Position numbers and translations under genes: made by a program
Assembly: GCF_010692555.1 (NCBI RefSeq)
Contig: NZ_JAAHHG010000024.1
Location: forward strand, 1-64,000
Source: Okeania sp. SIO3B5
GTDB taxonomy: Bacteria; Cyanobacteriota; Cyanobacteriia; Cyanobacteriales; Microcoleaceae
DNA: 64,000 nucleotides
Direction of reading: 5' to 3'
Shown here: positions 7,877-53,855 of the stretch, one piece after another
Position numbering within the stretch: position 1 is the first letter of the stretch
Layout: each line of letters begins with the position of its first letter
Notes under the pieces: generated by a model
Told to the model about the DNA's origin: nothing
The model's input: only the letters and a program-made list of their open reading frames with translations
Databases searched by the model: none

Positions 7877-7965
7877 ATTCAGAAACTCCATAGCTATTTT
7901 TTTCAAGAGAAAGTAAGAAATTTCTTGCTTTCTCTGTCTGACAAGAAAAGTCTTGAATAATAAAG

Positions 7966-8620: not shown

Positions 8621-10651
8621 CTAACGCTCCATTTGTGGTTTGTTTCCCCGATATTGAGGCTCCTGTATCAGCAAATCATCTACATCTGAAGTAGGAATTT
8701 CACACTGAGAGCATCGCACGGAACTATCAGCTTCAATGGAGGCACTAAAAATTTTACGGGGATTACCCCATTCATCGGTTTGCTTTAAATCAAATCCTTC
8801 TAATTGATACGATTTGTCTGGCTGCTTTGAAATTTCAAAGACACGATCAAATTCTCCATTAGTATCCGTCCAATGGATAGAGCCTACCTCCGTATTGAAC
8901 TGTTCTGGGGCATGGCGTTGGAAGTAATCAATTAAATCCTTACTGTCAACATTTTGGGTATACTCTGACTCTGTTTGAGGTAACTGAAGAATGCGATTTT
9001 GTTCTTCCGACGATAGAGAATTATCGGAAATCTGCCAACCATCATCGGTTTGTTCAGCCCGAAACCGCACCTGTTTATAAGTGATGGTTCGTTCTTTTTC
9101 CTCTGAAGAAAATTGATATCCTTCAGCATCAACTGCCTGATTATCAAGCAATCGTGCCACATTTGCTTTATGTGCCTCAGATAACTCGCTATCGGCCTGC
9201 CAGTCCTGTAAATTTTCATCCCAACTTGCTACAGTAACGTTTTGAGTAATACTAATAGTATTCTCATCAGAGTTGAAGTGGAGGACACCTAAGTTAGTTT
9301 CAATAGGCTCATCCTGATTCAAGTCATGTGCAGTGGCCCGTACACGCACAAACTGGCTTAATGACTCTGCTACAGCTTGAGGACTTTCCTGAATGTTGGT
9401 TGGGACATCGGAGCTTGGGGTTTCAGTGTCAACTTTTACTTGAGCTAACCGTTCATCAAAATGACGTAAGGCTTCCTCGTCATGGAGCCAATCATCATCA
9501 CCCTCAGATTGAGATATTTCTACTGAAGGCCGAGAATTCTCCTCCAATTGCGTTTCTGTCTCTTGCTCTTGCTCCTGCTCCGAGCCCCAAACTTCTCTGC
9601 CAATTTCAACGACTTCTGCCAGGTGCGCCGTCACATCAAGAAACATCCCCGCATAGAACCTGCCATCTATATAGTCACTTTGCTCAAGATGATTAGCCTG
9701 TTGCTTCATCCAGACGATTAAATTTCCAGGAGCTACCTCTACATCTATATCTTCTAAACTAAACTGTTCCTCATTTTGAGACGTTTCATCCTGTTCGGAG
9801 TTCAATTCAGGTGAATAATCTTTGCCTAAAGAGGGTTCATCGACAGTAAATACATCCTTCATTGACGAAATAGGTGTACTTACTGACTCACTCCTTGGCT
9901 CCCAATCTTCAGATTCATCCACCTGTTTAGCCTCCAAACGTTTCAATATAGAGGGTTTCGTGTATTTGCGACCTAGTTGATATCCGGCAAAAGGGATACC
10001 TTCATATCGCATCCACCACCCCTGTGATGTAGTATGTACCTCTACTCCTAAAGATTCCATCGCAGCAGTCAAATCTTCAAAAGAGCTTCCCGGTTCTAGG
10101 CTTTCATCAATAATATTCTGAAGCTTTTGCCGGATACTGCGCTTAGTTGGCTTGATAGTATTTGACTGCTCTTCAAGTTCTCCAATATCTGGAACAGCTT
10201 GCAAGCCATACTTGCGCTCCACAGTCCGCAAGATTTTTGGAATCTTATAATAATCCCAGCTAGTATTAGCACACTTGCCACAATCATCCACCAAATTAAT
10301 CAATAGATGAGCATGAGTGCGAGTTTTTTCAGAGTCTGGATACTTTACATCGTTATGCAAACCCACCAACACCTGGTTCTTATCAAGATTTAGATCGTCA
10401 ATAACTTGGCTACAAATTGCTGCCCATTCACCCCGGCTCAAATTATCTCCGGCTGAGGGAGACAAAGACAAGTGATATGCCGGACGTTTGACTCTGCCAT
10501 TACGACTCGCCACCCATTGCATCGCCGCAGCTTTTTCTGCTACCGTCTTGCCTTCAAACACATTCTCAAGAAGTGCTTCGGCTCCCGGCTTGCCAAATAT
10601 ATAGCTGGCGACACTATGAAAATTAGTGTTTCGTGTGACTTTACCAATCAT
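8621..10651 (-). CDS. MOBP-like relaxase (mobilisation nuclease)
   Basis: Probable transfer initiator that nicks oriT and stays covalently bound to the strand. The start MIGKVTRNTNFHSVASYIFG has the MIGK opening of the Relaxase/MobA family, and its Tyr (about residue 17) is the candidate catalytic residue. Further motifs are YHLSLSP near 58 and a metal-binding segment HNDVKY..THAHLLIN at about 98-118, the H-D..H-x-H..N signature. Residues 260-676 form a long acidic tail. I choose ATG 10651 because it gives an 11-base overlap with the mobC stop; ATG 10660 is also in frame. The tail repeats short IT-x-W-x-D-like units and may contact the coupling protein. Confidence 0.85.
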   Translation of the reverse strand: MIGKVTRNTNFHSVASYIFGKPGAEALLENVFEGKTVAEKAAAMQWVASRNGRVKRPAYHLSLSPSAGDNLSRGEWAAICSQVIDDLNLDKNQVLVGLHNDVKYPDSEKTRTHAHLLINLVDDCGKCANTSWDYYKIPKILRTVERKYGLQAVPDIGELEEQSNTIKPTKRSIRQKLQNIIDESLEPGSSFEDLTAAMESLGVEVHTTSQGWWMRYEGIPFAGYQLGRKYTKPSILKRLEAKQVDESEDWEPRSESVSTPISSMKDVFTVDEPSLGKDYSPELNSEQDETSQNEEQFSLEDIDVEVAPGNLIVWMKQQANHLEQSDYIDGRFYAGMFLDVTAHLAEVVEIGREVWGSEQEQEQETETQLEENSRPSVEISQSEGDDDWLHDEEALRHFDERLAQVKVDTETPSSDVPTNIQESPQAVAESLSQFVRVRATAHDLNQDEPIETNLGVLHFNSDENTISITQNVTVASWDENLQDWQADSELSEAHKANVARLLDNQAVDAEGYQFSSEEKERTITYKQVRFRAEQTDDGWQISDNSLSSEEQNRILQLPQTESEYTQNVDSKDLIDYFQRHAPEQFNTEVGSIHWTDTNGEFDRVFEISKQPDKSYQLEGFDLKQTDEWGNPRKIFSASIEADSSVRCSQCEIPTSDVDDLLIQEPQYRGNKPQMER

Positions 10652-10937
10652 GATGCTCATCCAACAAGCATTGAATATCTTGAACAACCTTAAGAGTTTG
10701 GGGGGAAAACTCTTCAGTAGAGATTAAATCTCGTACCAGATGAAGTAGAGTTTGCAATTCTACTTGCTGTTTCCTAAATTTCACCCTTTGCTCAATGAAA
10801 TCTGTGAGGCAATTAGGAGTGAACAACTTTTCTCGAGCTACCGAGCTAAGACTCTGTTCACTCCTTTCTGCCAATGCCTGTAGGGCATTGTATTCGGAGA
10901 ACGTCAACCGAACCCTCAAATGACGATTTCTTTTCAT
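10641..10937 (-). CDS. mobC: MobC-like relaxosome accessory protein
   Basis: This 98-residue protein opens with RHLRVRLTFSEYNALQALAE, typical of the ribbon-helix-helix start of MobC/MbeC mobilisation proteins, followed by helices that would pack with the relaxase. It overlaps the relaxase start by 11 bases, so the two are translationally coupled. It faces the iteron region at 11.1-11.3 kb across a divergent intergenic region, consistent with binding oriT there. The family call is from motif pattern and position. Confidence 0.75.
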   Translation of the reverse strand: MKRNRHLRVRLTFSEYNALQALAERSEQSLSSVAREKLFTPNCLTDFIEQRVKFRKQQVELQTLLHLVRDLISTEEFSPQTLKVVQDIQCLLDEHHDW

Positions 10938-11100
10938 TAGTTAGATTAAATTTCTCCTGAATCATGGAGAGACCTCACACAGTCTTTGAGCTTGTGTTTA
11001 ACTTAATCGCTGATTTTAGAAATTGCAACCCCTAGAACAGGTCTAAAAAAAACTTGCAAGCAATGGCAAAAGTATTACACGTTCTTAAGTACATCCTGAT

Positions 11101-11324
11101 CACGGCGATTTGAACACAGATTGACCCCGGATTGACCCCCAATAACCGCGATTTGAACACGGATTGACCCCGGATTTTTACGCCTGTTTTTTTGTTTCTT
11201 CAGATTTTATTTTCAATACCGATTTACTCACGGCGATTTGAACACGGATTGACCCCGGATTGACCCCCAATAACCGCGATTAAAACACGGATTGACCCCG
11301 GATTTTTACGCCTGTTTTTTTGTT
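11101..11324. repeat. Iteron array, candidate oriT or partition centromere
   Basis: Two 96-bp direct repeats (11101-11196 and 11229-11324) differ at only a few bases. Each contains two shorter units reading GCGATTTGAACACGGATT then GACCCCGGATT; the four units begin at 11105, 11148, 11233 and 11276 (spacing 43, 85, 43). They lie between divergent mobC-relaxase and parM-parA operons. That suits oriT recognised by MobC/relaxase, or a parC centromere recognised by the segregation genes, and the region could serve both. The rest of the 587-bp gap is AT-rich, with one hairpin and no ORF. Confidence 0.75.
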
Positions 11325-11365
11325 AATTTTCATAAACATATTAATATTATTTAACAATGCATTTA

Positions 11366-11395
11366 TTTTTTCGATAGCATTTGCTATCGAAAAAA
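11366..11395. promoter_or_regulatory. 13-bp hairpin with GATAGC/GCTATC core
   Basis: A perfect stem (TTTTTTCGATAGC against GCTATCGAAAAAA) with a 4-base loop ATTT. It has T and A runs on its two sides, so it could act as a bidirectional terminator or as an operator. Near-identical copies occur at 28770-28797 and 53602-53627. Confidence 0.7.
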
Positions 11396-24219: not shown

Positions 24220-25164
24220 ATGGAAAATCTCTCTATGTGTGGCCCAGACCATCTCGGACTCACTGCCCCTGTCCCTCTTAACCAACATCCTGTGGGGGTC
24301 TATTTGGCCTCTTTGAGTCCTGGTTCTGTGGTCACTATGAGACAGTCTCTCAACACTATGGCCTCTCTCTTGACGAGGGGTGAGTGTGATGCTTTTACTC
24401 TAGATTGGTCTAAACTCCGCTACCAACACACCACTGCACTCAAAGTTGTCCTTAGACAAAAATATTCCCCATCCACTGTCAATAAAATGCTTTGTGCTTT
24501 GAGGCGGGTATTAAAAGAGGCTGTTCGTTTGGATTTAATCGACCCAAAAGACTATTCAAATGCAATTGATTTATCTAATATGAGAGTTCGAGGAAAACCT
24601 AGAGGTCGCGCCCTCACCCGTACCGAAATTACACGCATCATGGAGGTCTGTCAGTCGGACTCACCAATAGATGTGAGGGATACTGCAATAATTGCTATCC
24701 TACGGGGTACGGGTTTGCGTCGAGCTGAAGTGGTTAATTTAGACTTGGAAGATTTTGACCCCACAACCGGAAAGGTGCAGGTACGTCTGGGGAAAGGAGG
24801 TAAGGATAGAATGGTTTATTTGCCAGAAAGTGCGATCGCACTTGTGGAAAATTGGTTACGGGTAAGAGGAGAAATGCCTGGGCCATTATTGTGTCCGATT
24901 AATAAGGGTGGCAATTTACAGATACGCAGGATGTGTCCTGATGCTGTGTTGAAGATTTTGAAGAAGCGCGCTCTACAGGCGGGTGTTGAGGAGTTTAGTC
25001 CCCATGATTTTCGGAGAACGTTTTGTTCTGACTTGTTGGATGCTAATGTAGATATTGTGACGGTTCAGAAATTAGCAGGTCATGCTTCACCCGTTACTAC
25101 AGCGAAATACGACCGACGGGGTGAAGAAACTAAAAAACGGGCTGTGCAAAATTTGGAGTTTTAA
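24220..25164 (+). CDS. Tyrosine recombinase (XerC/D-type integrase)
   Basis: This 314-residue site-specific recombinase has an N-terminal SAM-like DNA-binding domain (about 20-110) and a catalytic domain with Arg in GTGLRRAEV (about 167), Lys in GKGGKDRMVYLP (about 198), HDFRRTF (about 261), GHA (about 286) and the nucleophile in TAKYDRR (about 296). All catalytic residues are present, so it should be active. It may resolve multimers of the plasmid or integrate the element; no att pair was identified. It stands alone, with no neighbours in an operon. Confidence 0.92.
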   Translation: MENLSMCGPDHLGLTAPVPLNQHPVGVYLASLSPGSVVTMRQSLNTMASLLTRGECDAFTLDWSKLRYQHTTALKVVLRQKYSPSTVNKMLCALRRVLKEAVRLDLIDPKDYSNAIDLSNMRVRGKPRGRALTRTEITRIMEVCQSDSPIDVRDTAIIAILRGTGLRRAEVVNLDLEDFDPTTGKVQVRLGKGGKDRMVYLPESAIALVENWLRVRGEMPGPLLCPINKGGNLQIRRMCPDAVLKILKKRALQAGVEEFSPHDFRRTFCSDLLDANVDIVTVQKLAGHASPVTTAKYDRRGEETKKRAVQNLEF

Positions 25165-28769: not shown

Positions 28770-28797
28770 TTTTTCGATAGCATTTGCTATCGAAAAA
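28770..28797. promoter_or_regulatory. 12-bp hairpin, second copy of the GATAGC element
   Basis: The stem is TTTTTCGATAGC against GCTATCGAAAAA with loop ATTT, nearly identical to 11366-11395. It lies between the RHH gene and the helicase, both on the minus strand, so it could terminate the former or control the latter. Confidence 0.7.
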
Positions 28798-28829
28798 AAA
28801 GATGCAAAAAAAGAGCGATCGCTTTAAAA

Positions 28830-29307: not shown

Positions 29308-31101
29308 ATGTTACTGAAATCCCAAACAATTATCAAGCAAGAAGAGTTGGTGTCTATCTTAGAGGCTCAACTCAAGAAAGCAAAATCCAGACTGACTGAG
29401 CTAACAAAAGCTGATACCAAGATTAAATCAGTTGTTGCAGAACTAGAATCATTACTGACTGAGCATCCAGACTACAAACTGCTGGTAAGCGATCGCCTCA
29501 AGCTCGGAGAGAGTGAAGCAGACCAAACAGGGCCAGTGCGAATTGAAATTGAATCAGTAGGCAAAACAGCCGAATATACTGAATCAGAAATAGAAGCTTA
29601 TGACAGTTTATTCGGTGACGGACCACCACAAACCGCACCCAAAACTGAGGAAATAATTACTGAGCATACCGCACAAATTTTAGAAAATACTCCTGAACCA
29701 ATTGAATCGCCATACTCATCTGAAGCAGAAATAGCTCCATTAATTGAAGCACATGACCAACTCTCTCAAAGAAATCAGCCTACGGAACAAGAAATTTCCG
29801 CATGGGATTCTGGACATGAGCAGGTACAATCCGTAGTATCGCCGATTCAATCCGACGAAGAAGAAAAAATTGCTCTGGTTGAAAAAGTATTGTCAGAACT
29901 GGATACTTTTGAGTTTTCAAAGACCCGAGGCATTCCCAAGATAGCTATGTACATAGAAATTAAAGGCAAATCTTTGGGGATGATTTTTACCGACAAAGGT
30001 AATCTGTTAAGCACTATCGAGCTTGAAGAAAACTTGATTAGGACTTACGCATTAGATTTGCCTTTACTCCTAAAGGATGTAAACGAAGGTAAATCTATCA
30101 CTCTTGATAATTATTGCTTATCTAAAAAATCAGAAGTAGGCAAAGTTCAGCAGCAAAACAAGCCTACAGCTAAGGCTACTGTCGAAACTTTAAAAGCTGC
30201 TGATGTTGAGCAAGTAGAAGATGAGTCAATGGTTCAAAAACCTGAACCCACGCTCTCGCAACTGAAGGAACAATTGTTGAGCAAAAAGAACAAATCAGAA
30301 TTAGAGGAATTTAAAGCATCCATAGGTGCACCTATGGCTCTTAAGATTTGGGAAAGCTGCACCCATGCCGAGCGGAATCTCATAAAGTGCATCAACGTCG
30401 TCGCGGATTCCAAGCGAGCTGCCTTACCCTTTGACTTAGTTGGTTGGCACAACGCTCTAGGGAAGCTAGAAATAGCCCGGTATGTAGGTTTTTACTTATA
30501 TGGCAAGCAAGTAGAGGATTCCAAGCGGGTTATCTACTTAGTAAAGCATGACACATTCAAGATAGTAGATAAGCGATCGCTTAAAGGAGTAGATGCAAAG
30601 TCTCAAAAACCTTGCCCGACTGACCTTGTGATTAAGTTAGAAGCTGCATTACAAGCACAACCAGAACCAGAGCAACCTACAGCAGAAGAAATAGCATCTA
30701 ATAACTTTACTGGACTTGAACCTACCCCAAAGCAGAATGGTTCCGAAAATGGAAAACAGCAAGACTTCAGTCAATCAGAGCAAAGCGACGTGGTACAAAC
30801 AGAACTATATCTTAAGGTTGAGCAACCAGCACCATCTAAAAAGACTGAAGTTATTCCTACACCGTTGTTAGAGACAGTTGCAGGTGAGATCAAAAAAGTC
30901 AACCCTGAATTAACTTTTGGCTATGACTCCAATGGTAAATCAACCTTTCTAACCGTTTACCATGGGACATCCTATATAGGTATCTTTGAGGACGACGGTG
31001 TGGATTTATATTCTTCTAATACCGCAAAGATGTTGCATCACGGCTTCACAGAAGAAATGATTGATGCCTTAATTGAGATTGAATTATCCCCAAAGGTATA
31101 G
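29308..31101 (+). CDS. Modular protein with coiled-coil N-terminus, -1 frame continuation likely
   Basis: Family not recognised. It has 597 residues in the zero frame. The N-terminal helical module (1-65: EELVSILEAQLKKAKSRLTEL..ADTKI) matches the start of the 1243-residue methyltransferase-containing protein at 53917-57642. It is followed by an acidic linker, a small domain with GIPKIAMYIEIKGKSLGMIF (about 210-230), a helical domain (335-440) and another small domain near the C-terminus (VNPELTFGYDSNGKSTFLTVYHGTSYIGIF). The frame ends at TAG 31099 just after a CCCAAAG heptamer. The -1 frame is open through the next ORF, which continues with a domain seen in the 1243-residue protein. RBS AGGAGA. 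Confidence 0.8.
   Translation: MLLKSQTIIKQEELVSILEAQLKKAKSRLTELTKADTKIKSVVAELESLLTEHPDYKLLVSDRLKLGESEADQTGPVRIEIESVGKTAEYTESEIEAYDSLFGDGPPQTAPKTEEIITEHTAQILENTPEPIESPYSSEAEIAPLIEAHDQLSQRNQPTEQEISAWDSGHEQVQSVVSPIQSDEEEKIALVEKVLSELDTFEFSKTRGIPKIAMYIEIKGKSLGMIFTDKGNLLSTIELEENLIRTYALDLPLLLKDVNEGKSITLDNYCLSKKSEVGKVQQQNKPTAKATVETLKAADVEQVEDESMVQKPEPTLSQLKEQLLSKKNKSELEEFKASIGAPMALKIWESCTHAERNLIKCINVVADSKRAALPFDLVGWHNALGKLEIARYVGFYLYGKQVEDSKRVIYLVKHDTFKIVDKRSLKGVDAKSQKPCPTDLVIKLEAALQAQPEPEQPTAEEIASNNFTGLEPTPKQNGSENGKQQDFSQSEQSDVVQTELYLKVEQPAPSKKTEVIPTPLLETVAGEIKKVNPELTFGYDSNGKSTFLTVYHGTSYIGIFEDDGVDLYSSNTAKMLHHGFTEEMIDALIEIELSPKV
31089..31095 (+). promoter_or_regulatory. CCCAAAG slippery heptamer, candidate -1 frameshift site
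   Basis: In the zero frame this reads C CCA AAG, the X XXY YYZ pattern, three bases before the TAG stop. A 7-bp stem (31123-31129 with 31137-31143) lies 27 bases downstream, further than is usual for a stimulator. A -1 shift enters the open frame ending at 31628. Confidence 0.45.
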
Positions 31102-36446: not shown

Positions 36447-36824
36447 TTAGTCCTTCTGCGTCATTTTTTGAACTTTGCGTTTTTTATCCAACCAACCCTC
36501 CCTCAATAGTTTATAAAACCGTGGTGAATTTTTATTACCTAAAACCGGATTTTTTGAATCTTTCCTGTAATTAAAAGGATGATGAGCTATCTCATGACAA
36601 TCATCACAAAGCGGAAACAAATAACTACCAATCCCCCGAAAATCTGCAATAACTTTTCCGTCACGGTAGGTATACAAAGCATGATGAGTCTGTGTAGCTT
36701 CACTTCTACATAAACAACATCGAAAATTTGTTGATTCACGACATTTCCAAGATATTTCTGCCCAATTCTCAGGATACCTGATACTCCAGTCTACATCTTG
36801 AATATTGTTCTTACTTTGACTCAT
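36447..36824 (-). CDS. HNH-type zinc-binding protein
   Basis: This protein of about 125 residues has two Cys-x2-Cys knuckles: CCLCRSEATQTHHALY (about 36-51) and CDDCHEIAHHP (about 72-82). The HH and terminal H are positioned as in HNH endonucleases. The lysine-rich C-terminus could bind DNA. All putative zinc ligands are present. The ATG at 36824 is chosen over an upstream TTG. A related but ligand-poor protein is at 42137-42496. It may be a homing-type or restriction nuclease; the target is unknown. Confidence 0.65.
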   Translation of the reverse strand: MSQSKNNIQDVDWSIRYPENWAEISWKCRESTNFRCCLCRSEATQTHHALYTYRDGKVIADFRGIGSYLFPLCDDCHEIAHHPFNYRKDSKNPVLGNKNSPRFYKLLREGWLDKKRKVQKMTQKD

Positions 36825-36839
36825 AATTAAATTTATCAA

Positions 36840-37472
36840 TTAATTCGTTATACTACAATTTTTTTTTCGGTCGGATGCTCCCGTTATTGTCCCTACAGGA
36901 ACGTTATAGCAACGGGCTAGCGCGATCAGGTTTATAGCTGTAGCGGGTAGACCGTCTTCAATGCTACGAATATCAACCGTAGCAATGCCTGTAATTGCAC
37001 TTACGGACTCGATGGACTGTCCTTGTTGTCTCCGTAGAATGCGGAGCCTTTTTCCACATGGAGGCACAAAAGCCAGTAGAGCTATTTCTACGTTTCCTGA
37101 GTGTGGATGTCCATAATTGGCTTGCCATGCTGCTAGTAGCGCTACCTGAAAAGTGTAGTAAGTAAAGCAACTTTCCCTAGATTTCAGTTGCTGATAATGA
37201 CGAAAGTCAGTCTTTTCAAATCCAGGTCTTAAATCCCCGTACACAGGAATTACGTTTTGATACAGGTAAGAGTTACCATATATCTCATGCCGTTTTACAC
37301 TGTAGGCTTTAAACTCGGTGTATGTGTACACACACACTGAGTTTAGTGCAATAACACTACCGTATGTAGGTATAGTAGAGTACAGTAATTGAAGTAAACT
37401 AGCCTGGAAATGTTCTGAATGTGGGATATTCTCAATTAATCGGTTTTTTAATTGGTTGATACCTATATCCAT
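36840..37472 (-). CDS. HTH-containing unknown protein
   Basis: This 210-residue protein has a C-terminal XRE-like helix-turn-helix (about 142-200: RLRILRRQQGQSIESVSAITGIATVDIRSIEDGLPAT..LARCYNV) and an N-terminal region of about 130 residues of unknown fold. It lies upstream of the HNH gene and 30 bases downstream of the FtsK/HerA-like gene, both on the same strand. Probably a local regulator. Confidence 0.65.
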   Translation of the reverse strand: MDIGINQLKNRLIENIPHSEHFQASLLQLLYSTIPTYGSVIALNSVCVYTYTEFKAYSVKRHEIYGNSYLYQNVIPVYGDLRPGFEKTDFRHYQQLKSRESCFTYYTFQVALLAAWQANYGHPHSGNVEIALLAFVPPCGKRLRILRRQQGQSIESVSAITGIATVDIRSIEDGLPATAINLIALARCYNVPVGTITGASDRKKNCSITN

Positions 37473-37501
37473 AAAACTTGAGGCGACGCGCTCGCGTTAC
37501 A

Positions 37502-39742
37502 TTATTTTGATTTTAATCTACAATCAGGAAATATACTACCTGCTATATCACTCAAATGTTCCCTAGCTTTCCTCCACTTCCTAGCACTTTTTTTACCCTC
37601 TTTAGTCAGCACATTCCAATCAGCATAAACTGTAGCTACTAACTGCTCAATCCCAATATTAGGATTGTTTTCTCTTAACTCTTGAACATGGTCTAACCTC
37701 CTGGCATCATCAGCTAATTTATCGATAGATTCTACGCTGGGAACCGAAACTGAAAAACTTGGAGCTTTTTGCCCCATAGGAGATTCCAGCGGAATCTGGT
37801 TTTCTATCTGTTCTCCCTTAAGTTCTGGGTCACTAAAACAATTCGGAGGAGGCAATTTAGCAATGAAGGCTGGTTGACCTCGCATTTTTATTAACCCAAT
37901 ATATTTGTTTGATGAGTCTTGTTCTGCTAAAGCTTCCCATGCTTCTAATTGTTTTCTCAGCCTTTTTTTTGTGCTTAAAATATTATTAGAAACTTCATCT
38001 ATTCCTTTTTTAATATTCTCTGCACCTAGCCAAGCAGCTATACCAAAATTATCTAAATCAGTCTCTAACATTCCATATCTTGAACACATTGGAGACTGTC
38101 CTAGCATAATCATAATATTTCTGGTAGAACGTCCTACCTTTAATGTTTGCAGTATAGGATCTACTGCATTAGGCCCTTTGTTTTTAGCGTTCTTCGGATT
38201 TTCAGCTATTAGTCTTTCTGTTTCATCTATTACCCATAGAATAGTATGCCTTTCTGGCTTCTCTTTACCTAGATATTCTGCTTCCCTAGCCTCTTCAAGC
38301 CTGTTTTCGACAGACTCCTGCATATCCAGTAAGCCATCTAGCGCACAAGGCTCCTCAATTCCATCTGGATTTGTCCAGGGCTTAAATCCTTTATACTGAG
38401 GGATGACTTTTTCATCTTTGATTCGCCATTCTGTATCAGGATATTTAGGATCTATAATTCTTAAATCTATCACTCCTATTTTTCTGAATGCAAAATCCAA
38501 AAGATTACACAAGAACGATGATTTTCCTGACCCTGTTGGACCACAAACAAATAGATGGTAGCCACCATGTTCTTGACTAGAAATTTCTCCTAGTGAATTT
38601 AATATCCAGTCTTTTGGCGCTGGTTCAATTTCTATCCCCTTGACTTTTTGTGGTTTGGTTACACTAGGGTCAAACAAACTACAATCTATTTGAAATTTCC
38701 CATCTTCCCAGGTTAGTTGTGCCGTATAATATCCTTCTACTTTTCCTGGGATATTTTCTATAGCACGTTGTACTTTATATTTCGCAATACCGTAACGAAG
38801 ATGAAACCAATGGGAATCAAATTGACTCTTAGGATGTGCCCAAGAGTCTACCCAATCTGCTGCCACTTCATGTTCCAATAATATTTCCTGTACTTGCAGC
38901 GCAGCGTGATGAATACGTTTTGAGCTTTTTGGTGGTGTCTTGCAGGCGTTACTTTCTGCAAGAAGCTCCCGCAGTTGAGCGATCGCTTCATCCTTCAGAT
39001 TCAGTTCGTATGTATGCTGCTCTTGTAACTGCTTGATTTCTTGTGCGGTTTGTTCAGTTTGAAGATCGAGTTGCTTCTGCAAAAACTCTTGAGCTTCTGA
39101 AATACGGTCATTGACGGATTTATTCTCATCGGAAATTGCCTGGAGTAGTTCATTTTGTAGCTGCTCCTCTTTCTCCATCAAGGCCGTGTATTTTCCTTGA
39201 TATTCTGTTTCGAGAGCCGCCAATTTTTCTTCAAACCCTGCTGAGAGGATCGCCAATTTTTCTTCATACTCTGCTTTTTGGGCAGTAACTTCTTGGAGTT
39301 GGATAGCCAACTCCTGCTCTTGGGTAAGCAATTGTGATTCTACTTTGGTGGTAAGCCTCTCGCAGGAAGCCATACATTTTATGCCTGCAAGGGCACCTAG
39401 TATTAATATGGGAGGTGCTAGCACTACAGTCGAAGTAGCCGCGATTATAGTCCCACTTGCCAGGCCAACTCCTGCAATACTTAGGTATAGATATCTGGCG
39501 ATTGCTGTAGGTACTCCGGCACCAAAGTATTTGGTGTCGGTACGTTGAGGGGGTTCTGCTTGATGACCTGTGGTATTATTTAAGCCATAGTCTGTGCCTA
39601 AATCGGCGTGGTTAAAGTCAAAATCTTGCCTACTATCTAAGTTGTTGAAATCTAAGTTGTCGAAGTTTAGATTTCGACCTACATTTTTGACCTTTTGATC
39701 TATTTCACTCAGTTCTAAGTTGTGTTTATCATATATGCTCAT
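37502..39742 (-). CDS. FtsK/HerA-type ATPase with membrane and coiled-coil N-terminus
   Basis: This protein of about 746 residues has two hydrophobic helices near 82-125 (YLYLSIAGVGLASGTIIAAT, LAPPILILGALAGI), then a long coiled coil (about 135-265), a linker domain, and a RecA-like motor. The motor has Walker A GPTGSGKSSFL near 400, Walker B ILWVIDETERLIAE near 503, and a following MIMLGQSPMCSRYGM segment. This layout fits a membrane-tethered DNA translocase of the FtsK/HerA superfamily. Unlike the coupling protein at 19620, it is surrounded by small membrane and helical genes (39742-42064), so it may be part of a distinct complex. ATG 39742 and 39745 overlap the upstream stop. Confidence 0.75.
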   Translation of the reverse strand: MSIYDKHNLELSEIDQKVKNVGRNLNFDNLDFNNLDSRQDFDFNHADLGTDYGLNNTTGHQAEPPQRTDTKYFGAGVPTAIARYLYLSIAGVGLASGTIIAATSTVVLAPPILILGALAGIKCMASCERLTTKVESQLLTQEQELAIQLQEVTAQKAEYEEKLAILSAGFEEKLAALETEYQGKYTALMEKEEQLQNELLQAISDENKSVNDRISEAQEFLQKQLDLQTEQTAQEIKQLQEQHTYELNLKDEAIAQLRELLAESNACKTPPKSSKRIHHAALQVQEILLEHEVAADWVDSWAHPKSQFDSHWFHLRYGIAKYKVQRAIENIPGKVEGYYTAQLTWEDGKFQIDCSLFDPSVTKPQKVKGIEIEPAPKDWILNSLGEISSQEHGGYHLFVCGPTGSGKSSFLCNLLDFAFRKIGVIDLRIIDPKYPDTEWRIKDEKVIPQYKGFKPWTNPDGIEEPCALDGLLDMQESVENRLEEAREAEYLGKEKPERHTILWVIDETERLIAENPKNAKNKGPNAVDPILQTLKVGRSTRNIMIMLGQSPMCSRYGMLETDLDNFGIAAWLGAENIKKGIDEVSNNILSTKKRLRKQLEAWEALAEQDSSNKYIGLIKMRGQPAFIAKLPPPNCFSDPELKGEQIENQIPLESPMGQKAPSFSVSVPSVESIDKLADDARRLDHVQELRENNPNIGIEQLVATVYADWNVLTKEGKKSARKWRKAREHLSDIAGSIFPDCRLKSK

Positions 39743-40035
39743 CATTGGAAATTTAATTCATAAGACCAGAACCCGTAATAGATCATCACTATGCTAATTG
39801 CCAACACCAGCCAAGGGTACCATTCTGGGGAATTAAAGTGTGCAGCCCGCTTCCAATAATTAGAAGCCCATACCACCCAAAATATCCATGCTATTACCAA
39901 TAATCCAACCCATATCCAGTGTACTATTGGCGGTGCTAGCACCCACAAAAATTTTGTGGCAAAACCCGACAGTATGGAGAAAATTGCTACTACTATTAGT
40001 TGCGCGAATCGAAATGATACTGACTGGTCGTTCAT
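39742..40035 (-). CDS. Three-span small membrane protein
   Basis: This 97-residue protein is almost entirely hydrophobic, with helices at about 10-30, 35-58 and 72-90, and is Trp-rich (HWIWVGLLVIAWIFWVVW). Its stop overlaps the start of the FtsK/HerA-like gene, so the two are translationally coupled. It may be the membrane partner of that ATPase. Confidence 0.65.
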   Translation of the reverse strand: MNDQSVSFRFAQLIVVAIFSILSGFATKFLWVLAPPIVHWIWVGLLVIAWIFWVVWASNYWKRAAHFNSPEWYPWLVLAISIVMIYYGFWSYELNFQ

Positions 40036-40036
40036 T

Positions 40037-40522
40037 TTATTTACCTGACAACTTACCTCCTGACAGCCTGCCCTGCAAGGCTAACAAGGAGCTTTTCTCG
40101 GCATTCTGACTTAACAAATCTACCAAATCAAGCTGCTTCCCTTCTATTTGCGCCTGCTTTTGGCGACCAAATAGTTGAGTTTCTACTTGCGCTGCTCCCA
40201 GCTCTATCTGTGCTTTGAGATTATGAACTTGAGCTGTGCGCACTCCGATAGCAGCGGTATTAGCGTCGATGGCCTCCTTTTGAGCTTGGTTGCCTAATTT
40301 TTGCGCGGTATACATCTCCTTAGTATACAGTAAATTAGCCTGTGTTATTTTTACCCGGCTTGCTCGGGTTTTTATTTGTTCAGCAGTGAGCAGATTTGCC
40401 GATTGCTTGTACTTCTCCTGTAGAATAGCAAGATTATTTGTGCGTATTCTGCCTTGTATCTGTTCAGAGGCTTGTGTGAACTGGCCGGGGGTTGTGTACC
40501 CTGCTAATTGAGTTGATGCCAT
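40037..40522 (-). CDS. Gln/Ala-rich helical protein
   Basis: This 161-residue protein, mostly alpha-helical, is rich in Gln, Ala and Leu (QANLLYTKEMYTAQKLGNQA, AQVHNLKAQIELGAAQVETQ). It has no hydrophobic span and probably forms a coiled coil. Family not recognised. It lies one base before the three-span membrane protein gene in the same operon. Confidence 0.6.
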   Translation of the reverse strand: MASTQLAGYTTPGQFTQASEQIQGRIRTNNLAILQEKYKQSANLLTAEQIKTRASRVKITQANLLYTKEMYTAQKLGNQAQKEAIDANTAAIGVRTAQVHNLKAQIELGAAQVETQLFGRQKQAQIEGKQLDLVDLLSQNAEKSSLLALQGRLSGGKLSGK

Positions 40523-40571
40523 AATATATATTTCTTGTGGATTAACATCCGACTACACTACTATATGCTAT

Positions 40572-41192
40572 TTATGCTTCTTTCTGCTGTGTTGGCAGTT
40601 TCAGAATATTACTTGGGTTTCTAGGTGTCAGGCGTTGCGCACCGGACTGTTGCGCAGCTATAGCGTTGCCGTTAGCCACAATACCCTCTACGTCCACGCC
40701 TCCTCTGTCCTGGGGATTAAGAAGTCGTTGGAATCTAGCTGCGAGTGCTTTCTTCCTACTATCCAAACTAGATACAATCTGGGCTTCATTCTGAAGTACC
40801 AACTCGTCTGCTTTTGCATCCATTGGAGATGTAAGGAAGTATTCATAGAACTGTGCTGTTGCCTCAGCTTTCGCCAGGAATGCTGCTTCCCGCAGATGAG
40901 GATCAATTTGAGTTAGGGTTTTGTCGATCAGTTGATCGACAAAACCTGCGTCGCCTTTTCGTTGTGCTTCTAGAAATAGAGTCACGGCTTCATTAGGTGT
41001 TACGCCATTTTGAGTCATCAAAAGGACTAATGCAGTCCTTACTTGATTATTGACTTCAATATTAGCCTGCCGTGCTGCGTGTACCAGCAGTTGAACATCG
41101 TAAATCTCAAGCTTCGCTAGTTGGTACTTGCTCTTAATCCAGTTTATGAATTCTCTTATTTCTTGGTCGTTATCAGTATGATTTTGATTCAT
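40572..41192 (-). CDS. Helical unknown protein, 206 residues
   Basis: Predominantly helical and hydrophilic, with a Pro/Arg C-terminal tail (RLTPRNPSNILKLPTQQ). Not recognised. It may be a cytoplasmic component of the complex encoded by the 37.5-42 kb block. It has a fair RBS-like AGGACAGGG before the ATG. Confidence 0.6.
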   Translation of the reverse strand: MNQNHTDNDQEIREFINWIKSKYQLAKLEIYDVQLLVHAARQANIEVNNQVRTALVLLMTQNGVTPNEAVTLFLEAQRKGDAGFVDQLIDKTLTQIDPHLREAAFLAKAEATAQFYEYFLTSPMDAKADELVLQNEAQIVSSLDSRKKALAARFQRLLNPQDRGGVDVEGIVANGNAIAAQQSGAQRLTPRNPSNILKLPTQQKEA

Positions 41193-41244
41193 ATCCCTGT
41201 CCTGTTGTTATTGCATATATTCCATCAAACCGTTTGCTTTCGGT

Positions 41245-41517
41245 TTAGTTGAAATATTCCTCTGTCGTATCATTCAAATTTGCATAATTTTCGCTATCGG
41301 CAGGATCTAATAATCGGTATTCTGTGAAGTCCAATCCAGCATAATTTTCGTCTAAATTGGGATCTATTAACTTAGGTTTTTTGGAAAATTTCAGCGCGGT
41401 AGTAACATGGTCCCACAACCAGAGCGCCAGATTCTCCCAAAAACCAGGTACTTTACCCTTATACTGATACTTGCCAGTACCTACTCCGCCTGGGGGCGTT
41501 GTTAAACGATTATCCAT
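41245..41517 (-). CDS. Small acidic unknown protein, 90 residues
   Basis: This small protein has a Gly/Pro start (TTPPGGVGTGKYQYKGKVPGF), one short amphipathic Trp-rich segment (FWENLALWLWDHV) and two near-copies of a short motif near the end (DENYAGLDFTEYRLLDPADS, DSENYANLNDTTEEYF). It has a good RBS (AGGAG). Function unknown; part of the minus-strand block. Confidence 0.55.
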   Translation of the reverse strand: MDNRLTTPPGGVGTGKYQYKGKVPGFWENLALWLWDHVTTALKFSKKPKLIDPNLDENYAGLDFTEYRLLDPADSENYANLNDTTEEYFN

Positions 41518-41527
41518 AAAGCTCCTA

Positions 41528-42064
41528 TTATTTCCAAATAAATTTTATTATGTATAATCCAAAAACTACGCCTCCAACAAGCATAATGCCATCCATCATA
41601 TCATCACTAATTTGAAACTCTGGTGTCGCCAAATCTTGATGATTTTCTGTTCTGGTCTTGTGTATAGGCTTTTGCGTATCGTCAGTTTTTGCTTGATAAG
41701 CAGATGCCAAAACACAATTCACACCACCACCATTCAGCAAGCAATTATACTCTGAAATGCTGATATTTTTTAGGTACAATTCTGAGTCTTGGTTGTGAAA
41801 TTTAATCACTACTTCAGTCTTGTCTCTAGTCAGAAAAATAGTGGATGCTGCTGGAGGTAAAGATGTTTCTTCTACAGTTACCTCGGTCTCATTGATAGTT
41901 TTGTTGCCTATTACGGCTCCATCAACGGCGTTATCAGTTGTTATTAAAGGGTATATAGACAATCCGGCGATCGCTAAGACAGCAGAACCAATACCAATAA
42001 ATTTTACAGCCGTTAGTATGGATTTTATGGATGAGTTTGATTTAGTCAAATCACTATTCATCAT
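41528..42064 (-). CDS. Two-span membrane protein with exported loop
   Basis: This 178-residue protein has a transmembrane helix near 20-40, a loop of about 105 residues with a pair of cysteines (EYNCLLNGGGVNCVLAS, probably a disulfide), and a C-terminal helix near 155-175. RBS GGGGGAG. The layout suggests an envelope component with an exported domain. First of the five-gene group ending in the FtsK/HerA-like gene. Confidence 0.6.
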   Translation of the reverse strand: MMNSDLTKSNSSIKSILTAVKFIGIGSAVLAIAGLSIYPLITTDNAVDGAVIGNKTINETEVTVEETSLPPAASTIFLTRDKTEVVIKFHNQDSELYLKNISISEYNCLLNGGGVNCVLASAYQAKTDDTQKPIHKTRTENHQDLATPEFQISDDMMDGIMLVGGVVFGLYIIKFIWK

Positions 42065-42136
42065 AATTATCTCCCCCGTTAAAATAAATCTTGTTTTGAT
42101 CGTCTTTATTTGTTGCCCAAAATTCCATTTTTTTTC

Positions 42137-42496
42137 TTAAATAAATTTAATTAAATACAACAAAATTCCGACAATTCGTGCGTAGGTATGAATAAGTTTT
42201 TGAAAGGTATTTGGGTATCTGTTTTTAGGGTTTTTGTTTTGCTGTGATACTCCAATTTCTCTCCAAGAACCAGCTAGCAATCCATGTATAAATTTGTGTG
42301 CTACTCGTGAAACTACTATGCAGTCTATATTCCACTTTTCACATCCTAATTTTTTGTATGTAGTATGGTGACTACTTTCTGCTTTCAACCAAGGAAATAT
42401 TTGACATTTATATCCTGTTTTTCTTTTAAATTTCCTTGATTTATTTTTCCATTCGTAGCTGTTAATATAGTAATGGTAATTGATTTTTTTCTGCAT
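42137..42496 (-). CDS. HNH-like protein with degraded zinc sites
   Basis: This 119-residue protein follows an HNH layout: YEWKNKSRKFKRKTGYKCQIFPW, then SHHTTYKKLGCEKWNIDCIV, then HKFIHG. In intact relatives the first knuckle is C-x2-C and the third segment has C-x2-CH; here the second Cys of the first pair is missing (CQIF) and the third segment reads VSRVAH. The His residues remain. It may be catalytically impaired, or a Zn-free variant. Its neighbour at 42504 is close upstream. Confidence 0.55.
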   Translation of the reverse strand: MQKKINYHYYINSYEWKNKSRKFKRKTGYKCQIFPWLKAESSHHTTYKKLGCEKWNIDCIVVSRVAHKFIHGLLAGSWREIGVSQQNKNPKNRYPNTFQKLIHTYARIVGILLYLIKFI

Positions 42497-42503
42497 TTTT
42501 TAT

Positions 42504-42629
42504 TTAGCACCGACCGAATATCTCCATGACTATACTGAAGTTTTTAGTACATTCTTGGCTGAAAATTTCACCTAAAAAGCTCTGAAATTGTTGAGAAATA
42601 ATTTGAAAAATTTTACTGATTAGTTCCAT
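42504..42629 (-). CDS. Putative 41-residue small protein
   Basis: A short frame (MELISKIFQIISQQFQSF..FGRC) with AGGGG ten bases before its ATG, seven bases upstream of the HNH-like gene and on the same strand. The amphipathic N-terminal helix could be real. Such a short frame may also be chance. Confidence 0.35.
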   Translation of the reverse strand: MELISKIFQIISQQFQSFLGEIFSQECTKNFSIVMEIFGRC

Positions 42630-42665
42630 AGGATACCCCTTGTTTTTTGTAGATTTTATGGTAAT

Positions 42666-42751
42666 GGAACTGGAACTTTTAAAGCGGAATCTATTGATAT
42701 GACTAGCATTTCGCTGGAACTACACCTTGATGAAAGTTCCGATTAAGTTCC
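42666..42751. repeat. Cluster of GGAAC/GTTCC pentamers
   Basis: Five GGAAC or GTTCC units in 86 bases (starts 42666, 42672, 42716, 42736, 42747), with a sixth overlapping the 41-residue gene's start region (42623). Could be a regulatory site. The rest of the 42630-42870 gap shows no gene. Confidence 0.4.
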
Positions 42752-42870
42752 AGTATTTTTTGATGAATTTGGTCGTTTATTTGTCATTTCAGACTTCTGT
42801 CACTTCCCAGTTTACTAATATTGAGCTTGGAGATTTTTTATTAGTATTCTGGGTTGTTATTTTGTGATTT

Positions 42871-43135
42871 TTAAAACATTCCTGGAAATCCTGTTGTTAG
42901 ACAAATTGAATCTTCTGATTGAGTTTTTTTCTCCCTTACTAATTGGTTTAATTCTGGTGCATTTAACTGCTCTTTTTGTTGTGAAATAACCTGCTTTTTC
43001 TGATTTTCATACTCAGTAATTTTACCTCTATTTTTACGCAGCCATACCTGAACTTTTGCTAGTTCTAACTGAAGATTGAAAACCCTCTGTTCGAGTCTGG
43101 TAGCCTTTTGACCTCGAATCCTTTTAGTGACTCTA
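42871..43135 (-). CDS. Coiled-coil continuation of the 43065 gene in another frame
   Basis: An open frame of about 105 codons (43185 to the TAA at 42871) overlaps the 3' end of the gene at 43065-43580 in the -1 frame. It reads TRLEQRVFNLQLELAKVQVWL, then KNRGKITEYENQKKQVISQQKE, a convincing coiled coil, and ends CLTTGFPGMF. It has no ATG, GTG or TTG start of its own, so it is probably the C-terminal part of that gene, reached by a -1 frameshift or separated by an indel. Confidence 0.5.
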
Positions 43136-43580
43136 AAGGGTCGGTTTCTTCTGCCTCTAATATTTCCGACACATCGGTGGCAGCGTTACTAAATTCTGAT
43201 AGTTTGTCTAGTTGTTCTGCCAGGTCAAATGTTTGGGTGACTTCGTGTTGTGCAAGTTCGTCTAGCACTCCCAATTGTTCACCAATGATGATGTCTTGGG
43301 TTTTAGTTCGACCTCGTTTTACTCCTGTTTGAATACGGGCTTTTTTACTGAGATTAGCACTTTCTACTAATTTTTGAGCGTTTCCTGCTACTGCGTTTTC
43401 TAGAGTTTCTGAAGCTGTGGTTATGCTTCCTTGTACTTCTGTTGTTGGCTTTTTATTTACATTTTTACTGCTGTTATTAGTCGTATTTTTCTTCCCTTGG
43501 TTGTGTGCTTGCTGTATCAATTCTTCGGCGGTTAGCTCGGTAGCTAAATGTGTTCCGTTGTTGATTGTTTTCGTAGTCAT
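43065..43580 (-). CDS. Unknown Asn/Thr-rich protein, apparently frameshifted
   Basis: This 171-residue protein has a disordered Asn/Thr/Lys N-terminus (NQGKKNTTNNSSKNVNKK), then helical segments with a KRGRTKTQDIIIGEQLGVLDEL motif (95-115) and an acidic C-terminal part. Its last 20 residues (LPDSNRGFSIFS) look non-native. The -1 frame continues into a strong coiled coil ending at 42871. Its N-terminus overlaps the previous gene's end by 104 bases, an unusually long overlap. Confidence 0.55.
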   Translation of the reverse strand: MTTKTINNGTHLATELTAEELIQQAHNQGKKNTTNNSSKNVNKKPTTEVQGSITTASETLENAVAGNAQKLVESANLSKKARIQTGVKRGRTKTQDIIIGEQLGVLDELAQHEVTQTFDLAEQLDKLSEFSNAATDVSEILEAEETDPLESLKGFEVKRLPDSNRGFSIFS

Positions 43581-44049
43581 TTTTTACTTTTTGAAACTCC
43601 TGTTCTATGTCGATTTGATGGTGTTGAAGAACTGCTTTTAGTTGTTTTTCTCCTAGTTTTATTAGTTCTAAATATGTTTGACGGCTATATTTTGGGTCGC
43701 CTCTTCCTATTGCTAGGAAGAGTTTTAATCCGATTAGTTTTCGTACTGTTTCCCATGTCCAGGGATAGGTTTCTTCACCTATTGCTTTGAGGTCGTCTGA
43801 GATGGTTTTCTTGGCTTTGATGCCTAATATTTTTCTCAGTTCTTTTTTCTGGAATCGCTGTTCGCCATTCACTTGATAACCGTTGATGTAGACTATTGTT
43901 GCACCTTTTTCGGTTGTTACTGGCACCTCCTTTGCCTTTCTCCTCCTTGGTAGTGGGTTAAGATGTTTTCTTGTGTGTATGCTTATATTAAAAAGCACAT
44001 CCACCGGGATGTGCAAGGAACCTAAGCAACTATTTGGGAACGTAGGCAA
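43477..44049 (-). CDS. Unknown basic protein, uncertain start
   Basis: Up to 190 residues. The convincing part begins near residue 40 (EKGATIVYINGYQVNGEQRF), followed by KELRKILGIKAKKTISDDLKAIG (possible HTH-like), ETYPWTWETVRKLIGLKLF and a charged helical tail. No ATG is available; TTG 44049 lacks an RBS, while GTG 43926 has AGGAG directly beside it and AGGAGG further up. The 3' end overlaps the next gene by 104 bases. Function unknown. Confidence 0.5.
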   Translation of the reverse strand: MPTFPNSCLGSLHIPVDVLFNISIHTRKHLNPLPRRRKAKEVPVTTEKGATIVYINGYQVNGEQRFQKKELRKILGIKAKKTISDDLKAIGEETYPWTWETVRKLIGLKLFLAIGRGDPKYSRQTYLELIKLGEKQLKAVLQHHQIDIEQEFQKVKNDYENNQQRNTFSYRANRRRIDTASTQPREEKYD

Positions 44050-44078
44050 TTAATACGCAATCAGACTTCAAAAAGGGG

Positions 44079-44111
44079 TCTCCCGTTATAATCAGGCGAT
44101 TTAACGGGAGA
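44079..44111. terminator. 10-bp hairpin between two minus-strand genes
   Basis: TCTCCCGTTA (44079-44088) pairs perfectly with TAACGGGAGA (44102-44111), with a 13-base loop. It lies 34 bases beyond the stop of the 44145 gene. No T run follows on the minus strand, so a regulatory or RNA-processing role is also possible. Confidence 0.5.
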
Positions 44112-44144
44112 GAACTTCACATTTGTAGAGTCGGGAAAAGGATA

Positions 44145-45152
44145 TTATGCCACTTTTGAATTAGGAATTTTCTCAGGTTTATAATACTTAGGAACATCTA
44201 AAGTTGGCTCTCCAAGTAGTTCCATAAATCCCCATTGTTCTCTACCAGGTAAAAATTTAGCTTTAATTTCCACAAAGTAGCGATCGCCTTGTTGATCTTT
44301 CTCCAACTTAGGATTAAATCTGAACGGTTTTACTGGAGCATCCCTCCACAAGACAGGGACATGATTGGCTCTAGTAATTTGTTTATTTAATTTCTCATTA
44401 TCAAATTTTTTCTTTAATCGTGAGACGCGATCACCTTTTCCTTTTCTATTCCTGTGAATAGAAATTACAGGACATTTACAGACCGCTATAAATTGCCACA
44501 ATCCTGATAGTTTAAACTCGTTAACTTTTAAATCTAAATGAGGAGTATCATTAGCTGCAATTATTGTAAAACCTAGTTTTGGGGGAGTATTTTTGTTAGG
44601 GAAATGTGTGAGGTAAGGATAAACAGTTACATACCTATCTTTGTCAGGATTGTAGTCTAGCCTGAGAAATTCTTTTACCTTGGGGCTATTATAAATTAAT
44701 CCATAAGTTTTTCCTTCTGAAATCAGATTGTAGTAAGCATCATTATCCTCATATCGCCTGACTATTTTGCCATATAAAATTCCTATACCTTGGAAAGCAT
44801 AATCTTGTTTTGGTGGTAGGCTTTCTTCTTCTTTATTTTCTAATTTCTCTTCTTCTTTCACTTCTGAAGTAGCTACTTTTTGAGATTCAGATTTAGGCTT
44901 TGATTCTGTCTGTTTTTTAGTTTCAGTTTTGGACTGCTGAGTTGATTGAAATGTTTTCTCTTTATCTGAAGGTTTATCTACTTTTAAATCCTCAGCTTTA
45001 GTCGGATTTAATTTAGATTTTTCTGACTCTAATTGCTTAGTTAAATTATCAATAATATCTTGGAAAGTTTTCTTTTGTACTTCGTTTTGTGCAGCATTAA
45101 GGAGCTGCTGCATTTTTGCTAAATTTTTTTCTAGGTCTGGGATAGAAACCAT
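44145..45152 (-). CDS. Coiled-coil plus globular unknown protein
   Basis: About 335 residues: an N-terminal coiled coil (1-45), a Lys/Glu/Ser-rich disordered linker (50-115), and a globular domain (about 120-330) of beta character with YAFQGIGILYGKIVR, a Tyr/Pro-rich middle and KGKGDRVSRLKKKF. Not recognised. The ATG at 45152 has AGGAG nine bases upstream; GTG 45158 is in frame. Probably the first gene of the minus-strand block that ends with the FtsK/HerA-like and HNH genes. Confidence 0.65.
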   Translation of the reverse strand: MVSIPDLEKNLAKMQQLLNAAQNEVQKKTFQDIIDNLTKQLESEKSKLNPTKAEDLKVDKPSDKEKTFQSTQQSKTETKKQTESKPKSESQKVATSEVKEEEKLENKEEESLPPKQDYAFQGIGILYGKIVRRYEDNDAYYNLISEGKTYGLIYNSPKVKEFLRLDYNPDKDRYVTVYPYLTHFPNKNTPPKLGFTIIAANDTPHLDLKVNEFKLSGLWQFIAVCKCPVISIHRNRKGKGDRVSRLKKKFDNEKLNKQITRANHVPVLWRDAPVKPFRFNPKLEKDQQGDRYFVEIKAKFLPGREQWGFMELLGEPTLDVPKYYKPEKIPNSKVA

Positions 45153-53267: not shown

Positions 53268-53855
53268 CTATGTAGGGGGAGGTGTAGGATTTTCCCCCTT
53301 GATTATTTCTAATATTTGGCGATACGGTAATTTAGCAGCGAGCGCTCTCTCTACCGCGCGAACTTTTTTTTGTGGACATCCCACACATTCAATTACTGGC
53401 TTGCCTTTTTTATATATTTGTTGGCCATTTTCTCCTTGCTGATACCAGCAATAGCGCCAATACCAATGTTCAGGATTATTAGGGCCTCGCTTCTCTTTCC
53501 CTTCTTTGATGCGGGGGTACTCAACAAGTCCAGTTTTGGTTTCTACTGATTGTGTGTACTTATTCAGCCACCCGCTGCCTCCCACTGGCTTATACTGGGA
53601 TTTTTCGATAGTATTTGCTATCGAAAACCTAGACTCTTTGTTGGGCGGGTTTCCTGGAGTTTGAATATTTTCATTTTTTTGATGGCCATTATCTAGCTGA
53701 CGCTTTAATTTAGATTCATTGAGATTGAAAGGATGGCGTTTGTTTGGTGGTAAGTCACCACCATTATTAGGTGTACTCTCAGCTACATATTGTTGTGGGC
53801 TGTAAGTAATAGTTTCTTGTCTTGCGAACGCACTCTGTTGATGATATAGTTTCAT
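53268..53855 (-). CDS. Unknown protein carrying the hairpin in its coding sequence
   Basis: This 195-residue protein has a disordered polar N-terminus (1-90) and a compact C-terminal domain (about 95-190: GWLNKYTQSVETKTGLVEYP, WYWRYCWYQQGENGQQIYKKGKP, VGCPQKKVRAVERALAAKLPYRQILEII). The Trp/Tyr-rich strands plus a basic helix look like a small nucleic-acid-binding module found in cyanobacterial accessory proteins; I cannot name the family. Codons for FSIANTIEK overlap the third copy of the GATAGC hairpin. It lies upstream of the SF2 helicase. Confidence 0.6.
   Translation of the reverse strand: MKLYHQQSAFARQETITYSPQQYVAESTPNNGGDLPPNKRHPFNLNESKLKRQLDNGHQKNENIQTPGNPPNKESRFSIANTIEKSQYKPVGGSGWLNKYTQSVETKTGLVEYPRIKEGKEKRGPNNPEHWYWRYCWYQQGENGQQIYKKGKPVIECVGCPQKKVRAVERALAAKLPYRQILEIIKGENPTPPPT
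53602..53627. promoter_or_regulatory. Third copy of the GATAG/CTATC hairpin, inside a gene
   Basis: The stem TTTTCGATAG / CTATCGAAAA is a perfect 10 bp with loop TATTTG. One base differs from the copies at 11366 and 28770, which extend to 12-13 bp. It lies within the coding sequence of the 195-residue protein. Confidence 0.65.

Follow-up and report, generated by a model that had tools for sequence, protein, structure and literature searches.

A plasmid-borne, membrane-anchored FtsK-like motor in filamentous cyanobacteria and its link to hairpin-ended linear plasmids

What could an FtsK-like DNA motor be doing on a cyanobacterial plasmid that already encodes a relaxase and a coupling protein? 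The question is raised by a stretch of 64,000 nucleotides from Okeania sp. SIO3B5 (hereafter, the window), which makes up the first 64 kb of contig NZ_JAAHHG010000024.1 (75,452 bp) in an 11-Mb draft genome whose nearest relatives include Okeania, filamentous marine cyanobacteria. On the contig lie genes for conjugation (a relaxase of MobA/VirD2 type, a coupling protein of VirD4 type), for two proteins resembling ParM (actin-like) and ParA, for a tyrosine recombinase, and for replication (a Prim-Pol protein, accompanied by a helicase); together they mark it as a plasmid-like element with conjugation genes. Distinct from the relaxase/VirD4 genes at 0-23 kb, as an original prediction made from the DNA letters had stated, lies a small module built around an ATPase gene (37502-39745). 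Here, I regard the encoded motor as a new variant of the FtsK/SpoIIIE pump, that is, as a machine of known type, and consider what it may do for the plasmids that carry it.

The ATPase has two hydrophobic segments by hydropathy (residues 78-96 and 100-118), which form an N-terminal transmembrane (TM) anchor; an uninterrupted helix predicted at residues 112-265, a coiled coil of ~150 residues, leads into the motor domain, which has a P-loop (GPTGSGKSS) and a Walker B motif (VIDE). In the full-length AlphaFold2 model, built from three sequences, the coiled coil is the only confident part. A membrane-tethered motor of the FtsK/HerA superfamily with a long coiled coil is what the original prediction had proposed, and the coupling to a 3-TM protein that it had noticed is likewise seen, the ATG of the ATPase overlapping the stop codon of the 97-amino-acid (aa) gene at 39742-40035. 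Compared with its counterparts on two further Okeania contigs, L028 (SIO2B3) and L018 (SIO2F4), the ATPase shows 72-76% identity and a ratio of nonsynonymous to synonymous substitution rates (dN/dS) of 0.16-0.25; since it is so conserved, and since the motor motifs are kept across 39 sequences, these open reading frames (ORFs) are more than chance. The Pfam match of FtsK_SpoIIIE to the motor falls below its cut-off. Pfam gave no match in the window ATPase to T4SS-DNA_transf, TrwB or CagE/VirB4 domains, the VirD4-type protein of the window being a separate gene, nor to the HerA domain (DUF87), and NurA is absent among its neighbours; a DUF87 match below cut-off occurs in L020.

Diverged relatives of the motor were found by profile search in 27 of 390 sampled Cyanobacteriia genomes, on contigs of ~3 to 325 kb. 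These carriers have strong, near-full-domain profile matches and were selected by hand from the match table with chromosomal FtsK excluded; genome-search counts are lower bounds, for only the top candidates were scored and the assemblies are fragmented. The usual locus consists of a gene for a helix-rich protein of ~130-300 aa followed by the gene for an N-terminally membrane-anchored, coiled-coil, FtsK-like ATPase, the upstream proteins having a helix propensity above that of other ORFs of the same size (p = 3e-7); in one subgroup, the locus also includes a protein whose C-terminus bears a TM segment, a small TM protein and, downstream, a membrane-anchored protein. The 39 aligned motors, among which ATPase-domain identity goes down to 15%, keep the Walker A, Walker B and GQ motifs with minor variation. 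The profile of the family matches E. coli FtsK (1.1e-12), then EccC, the HerA-like YjgR and TcpA (9e-5). The C-terminus varies among motors, being either a zinc ribbon weakly like those of InsA/IS1595 transposases or helix-turn-helix (HTH)-like segments, the latter in the window.

When plasmids of all bacteria were searched, only cyanobacterial matches to the motor were returned (Anabaena, Calothrix, Leptolyngbya, Nostoc, Fischerella and Rivularia), all six genera being filamentous. These plasmid relatives were reached only with diverged family members as queries; the window ATPase and its close relatives gave no matches in plasmids, phages or viral contigs, and phage records and viral contigs gave no match with any of the queries tried. 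Carrier contigs are of extrachromosomal type, the named carriers being small plasmids, most of them typed as non-mobilizable, i.e. with no relaxase detected; in their annotation the motor is a 'hypothetical protein', once 'Smc', or absent from the gene table. The motor family is highly diverged and, in these searches, was met only in cyanobacteria and on plasmid-type contigs. Incidentally, open frames of ~1,800 aa in many cyanobacteria match an FtsK-type profile as well, outside the motor family.

The strongest association of the motor is with the telomere resolvase (ResT/TelK, PF16684). This enzyme is encoded on 11 of 11 distinct named motor plasmids examined (six confirmed by Pfam, 1e-23 to 1e-41, the others by annotation, profile or tblastn), in 25 of the 27 carrier genomes as against 72 of 363 non-carriers (Fisher 1e-14; 390 genomes), and on the same contig in 17 of 33 motor contigs. 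Exact inverted repeats (1491, 2213, 186 and 18 bp) are found at the ends of several plasmid records, pRIV7116.01 has a palindrome with arms of ~800 bp, and the arms of the palindromes in NIES-22 plasmid8 measure 49 and 73 bp; repeats and palindromes of this kind are the expected product of reading through closed hairpins. Among the hairpin-ended linear plasmids pNPM8-10 of Nostoc sp. N6, pNPM9, whose closed hairpin ends were inferred by its authors from sequencing reads (PMC5987646), carries a member of the motor family. The Okeania plasmid differs from these in carrying the module without a recognisable resolvase: PF16684 is not detectable in the window's own genome (G000), nor in the two other genomes with the window-type motor (G001 and G021), and no inverted-repeat ends were found on the window contig, which, at 75,452 bp, may be incomplete. 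A 597-aa protein of the window (29308-31101) was considered as a divergent telomere resolvase and rejected, as it has no Pfam or profile similarity. The module can thus persist without a recognisable resolvase, in the window on a relaxase/VirD4 plasmid, which weighs against a role confined to telomere formation.

Linear replicons are said to be 'rarely found' in cyanobacteria (PMC5987646); PF16684 in 97 of the 390 sampled genomes suggests that they are much commoner than the literature states. On one 98-kb contig (G237:C241) resolvase genes lie at both ends in opposite orientation, as terminal inverted repeats predict. On pRIV7116.01 (L125), which also carries the motor, a terminase-like gene (9706-11226) lies near the telomere resolvase, and no clear capsid or portal was found among the ten proteins of this plasmid that were tested; the terminase of pNPM9 is disrupted, and those who described this plasmid proposed phage remnants (PMC5987646). 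Hairpin-ended linear plasmids may descend from telomere phages.

The second association concerns the hosts. HetR is a marker of filamentous cyanobacteria. It is present in 27 of 27 carriers as compared to 198 of 390 genomes overall (4e-9); the query sequence is supported by 198 strong matches. Among genomes with the resolvase, the motor occurs in 25 of 74 with HetR and in none of 23 without (3e-4), a comparison that controls for the possession of linear plasmids. A wider profile of 39 sequences, applied only to those resolvase genomes in which no carrier was known and used only for this within-group comparison, raises the former figure to at least 33 of 74, with 0 of 23 unchanged (1e-5); motor and resolvase share one contig in five of the eight genomes so added. 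As a control, the replication protein CyRepA1 is common on plasmids of unicellular genera.

What belongs to the module was judged from the related Okeania loci. L028 and L018 retain the succession of the 161-aa gene, the 97-aa gene, the ATPase and the HNH gene, with a further small TM gene, in each of the two, following the 97-aa gene and preceding the ATPase. The dN/dS of the 130-aa HNH protein is 0.17-0.20; dS was saturated in most 97-aa pairs and in the 161-aa gene, which barred estimates there. The 161-aa protein is modelled by AlphaFold as a single helix of 114 residues (14-127) plus a short one, with a mean predicted local distance difference test score (pLDDT) of 83, and by profile comparison it is similar to the helical protein encoded ahead of distant motors (hhalign probability 91%). 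By comparison of loci, the conserved core is the 161-aa helical rod, a small TM protein (in part of the family) and the ATPase, to which a downstream HNH gene is added in Okeania. On a G003 contig with the same VirD4-type gene, the motor at the corresponding place is only ~25% identical and has a different, 179-aa, helical partner, which suggests that the module may be exchanged as a unit.

The original prediction had likened the set of six genes to a compact DNA-handling or export complex and taken it as a candidate for an undescribed system. The two helical proteins, small protein and 2-TM protein that it placed upstream do exist (161, 206, 90 and 178 aa, the last with two Cys), and in Pfam, NCBIfam, PHROGs and PADLOC none of the conjugation parts known there is matched by the partners of the motor. 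The six genes are, however, not conserved together, and the six-gene system is rejected, two to three of them not being conserved with the motor: the 206-aa protein is an orphan, with no homologue in 6 related genomes; the 178-aa protein belongs to a multicopy family whose relatives in G001, G003 and G004 sit on contigs other than that of the motor; and the 210-aa protein, absent beside the motor of L018 and L028, was without a homologue in the initial set of retrieved loci. What stands of the claim is the three-gene core, along with its novelty, in that no description of the plasmid-specific architecture, of the association with hairpin-ended linear plasmids or of the restriction to HetR-bearing hosts was found in the searched, openly licensed literature; nor did a search of the pNPM8-10 report for FtsK bring up any mention (PMC5987646).

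Several known machines resemble this one. E. coli FtsK (PDB 2iuu) and SpoIIIE have the same build, with an N-terminal membrane anchor, a RecA-type motor with the same motifs and a C-terminal DNA-binding-like domain, whereas the motor of the module is plasmid-borne, has a long coiled coil and a helical rod partner, shares low identity with them, and ends in a zinc ribbon or an HTH-like segment rather than in a recognised gamma domain; no site like the FtsK-orienting polar sequences (KOPS) was found. Closest in setting is TraB with the Spd proteins of Streptomyces, a plasmid-encoded FtsK-like motor with small membrane partners, often no relaxase, and a multicellular host group (PMC4170104); the cyanobacterial module differs in sequence and host phylum, repeats like the cis-acting locus of transfer (clt) were not found, many of its carriers are linear with hairpin ends, and its part in transfer is putative. 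TcpA of the Clostridium plasmid pCW3 (6o1w) and TdtA of Thermus are also FtsK/HerA-type motors in DNA transfer (PMC5365140). The former differs in working with a machine like a type IV secretion system (T4SS), the latter in having a NurA partner, and neither a coiled coil nor a membrane anchor is mentioned for TdtA in the paper searched.

A tentative answer, which I hold to be quite possible and somewhat short of probable, is that the module encodes a plasmid-dedicated, membrane-tethered double-stranded DNA (dsDNA) pump of FtsK/SpoIIIE type, serving to spread plasmids, or to segregate them, along filaments. The anchor, the rod and the small TM protein would place and orient the motor at the septum or the inner membrane, the variable C-terminus would select the plasmid, and the motor would drive plasmid DNA through the septum as it closes, or into the next cell; the plasmid would thereby colonise, and be retained in, all cells of the filament, as TraB with Spd does in the Streptomyces mycelium. 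A hairpin-ended linear molecule might be a convenient substrate for end-first translocation. In favour of this reading are the FtsK-type motifs and profile, the anchor, the coiled coil and the rod partner, along with the plasmid contigs, the HetR-bearing hosts and the mostly non-mobilizable carriers; the Okeania plasmid keeps the module despite its own relaxase/VirD4 and par genes, and TraB/Spd offers a precedent (PMC4170104, PMC5365140). Some points weigh against such a pump. Localisation, ATPase activity, translocation and transfer are all predicted; the link with filaments is confounded with host phylogeny, with the carriers falling in seven families; no consistent clt/KOPS-like repeat cluster was found near the module in 12 sequences; and the tight link with the telomere resolvase could signal a role in resolution instead.

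The latter is the main rival, with which, as with the pump, the present data are compatible, even if I deem it rather unlikely. In a manner recalling FtsK and XerCD at dif, the motor would translocate the plasmid at the septum during division and thereby present the dimer junction to an enzyme of tyrosine-recombinase type, namely the telomere resolvase on linear plasmids and, on the Okeania plasmid, the recombinase of phage-integrase type; dimer or telomere resolution would then allow the daughter plasmids to part. The co-occurrence with the resolvase in genomes, named plasmids and contigs, as well as the recombinase gene on the window plasmid, speak for it; yet the three genomes with the window-type motor have no detectable resolvase, and the motor is missing from many resolvase genomes, including all 23 that lack HetR. 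An accessory or alternative coupling motor for plasmid conjugation, feeding type IV machinery as TcpA does in pCW3, is improbable: both in the window and in G003, VirD4-type genes do lie on the contig of the module, and TcpA is among the profile matches, but the plasmid already encodes a coupling protein of VirD4 type, and most named carriers of the family are small and typed as non-mobilizable.

Still less is to be said for the view that the module is part of a telomere-phage-like (N15-like) element, or what is left of one, in which the ATPase aids genome packaging or virion assembly. The terminase genes of pRIV7116.01 and pNPM9 and a weak PHROG terminase match to the ATPase itself (1.6e-4) agree with it, but packaging would be done by the terminase itself, the module genes of the window gave no clear capsid or portal match (weak matches, best 1.6e-4), like the pRIV7116.01 proteins, and the phage and viral searches were empty. 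As to a defence module, HerA- or Zorya-like, guarding plasmid or host, the HNH protein downstream of the motor matches ZorE profiles (ZorE-HNH-like, E 1.5e-7), and in Okeania the motor has HNH genes on either side. However, the ten module-region proteins scanned included no ZorA/ZorB or HerA-system partner, the HNH match being the only one; HNH genes beside the motor were noticed only in Okeania loci; and the strict tie to plasmids and linear replicons is atypical of defence islands. This reading is very hard to credit.

The motor is a marker of a large group of hairpin-ended linear plasmids from multicellular cyanobacteria. If the septal pump were true, it would be a second, independent case of a single FtsK-like motor moving plasmid DNA in a multicellular bacterium, and plasmid spread and persistence in polyploid filaments would become testable. 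A bolder and doubtful extension is that a class of hairpin-ended linear plasmids, widespread in filamentous cyanobacteria, spreads from cell to cell by a self-encoded septal dsDNA pump, independently of T4SS and in parallel to Streptomyces TraB, and that conjugative Okeania plasmids borrowed this pump to colonise filaments after transfer.

Table 1. Genes of the motor module and other features of the window
Feature	Position	Strand	Remarks
FtsK/SpoIIIE-type ATPase, 747 aa	37502-39745	-	Core; membrane-anchored, coiled coil, HTH-like C-terminus
97-aa 3-TM protein	39742-40035	-	Core; homologues 59-66% identical, same place in L018 and L028
161-aa rod-like helical protein	40037-40522	-	Core; homologues in L018 and L028
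130-aa HNH-type protein	36447-36839	-	Downstream partner in Okeania loci; same order in L018 and L028
90-aa small protein	41245-41517	-	Possible accessory; homologue (47%) only in L028
206-aa helical protein	40572-41192	-	Orphan; probably outside core
178-aa 2-TM protein	41528-42064	-	TM at each end, two Cys between; probably outside core
210-aa protein, weak HTH matches	36840-37472	-	Downstream of ATPase; not beside motor in L018 or L028
119-aa HNH-like protein	42137-42496	-	Upstream; homologues in L028, L019, L020, L023, L024
Upstream backbone genes, 337, 190 and 171 aa	43065-45158	-	All three conserved in L028
Tyrosine recombinase (phage-integrase-type)	24220-25164		Window plasmid
1,056-aa protein	4736-7906		Conjugation region; no Pfam match, no significant solved relative

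Around the core (Table 1), HNH-type genes, which like the 210-aa gene were absent from the original prediction, stand on both sides of the module, and relatives of the upstream, 119-aa one adjoin a diverged Okeania motor type; the 337-aa backbone gene has a 96% identical copy upstream of the other motor type in L025. In the conjugation region, a VirB4 identity for the 1,056-aa protein was rejected, as no match was found. Between the relaxase and ParM-like genes lie two 97-bp direct repeats with GATTGACCC iterons (11099-11395), and a palindrome of 27-30 nt occurs at three places in the window, the sites given for repeats and palindrome being 11099-11395, 28770-28798 and 53601-53627; both the repeats with their iterons and the palindrome are candidates for a centromere or an origin of transfer (oriT). 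Tandem repeats are also present at 868-1127, within the ORF at 114-1649.

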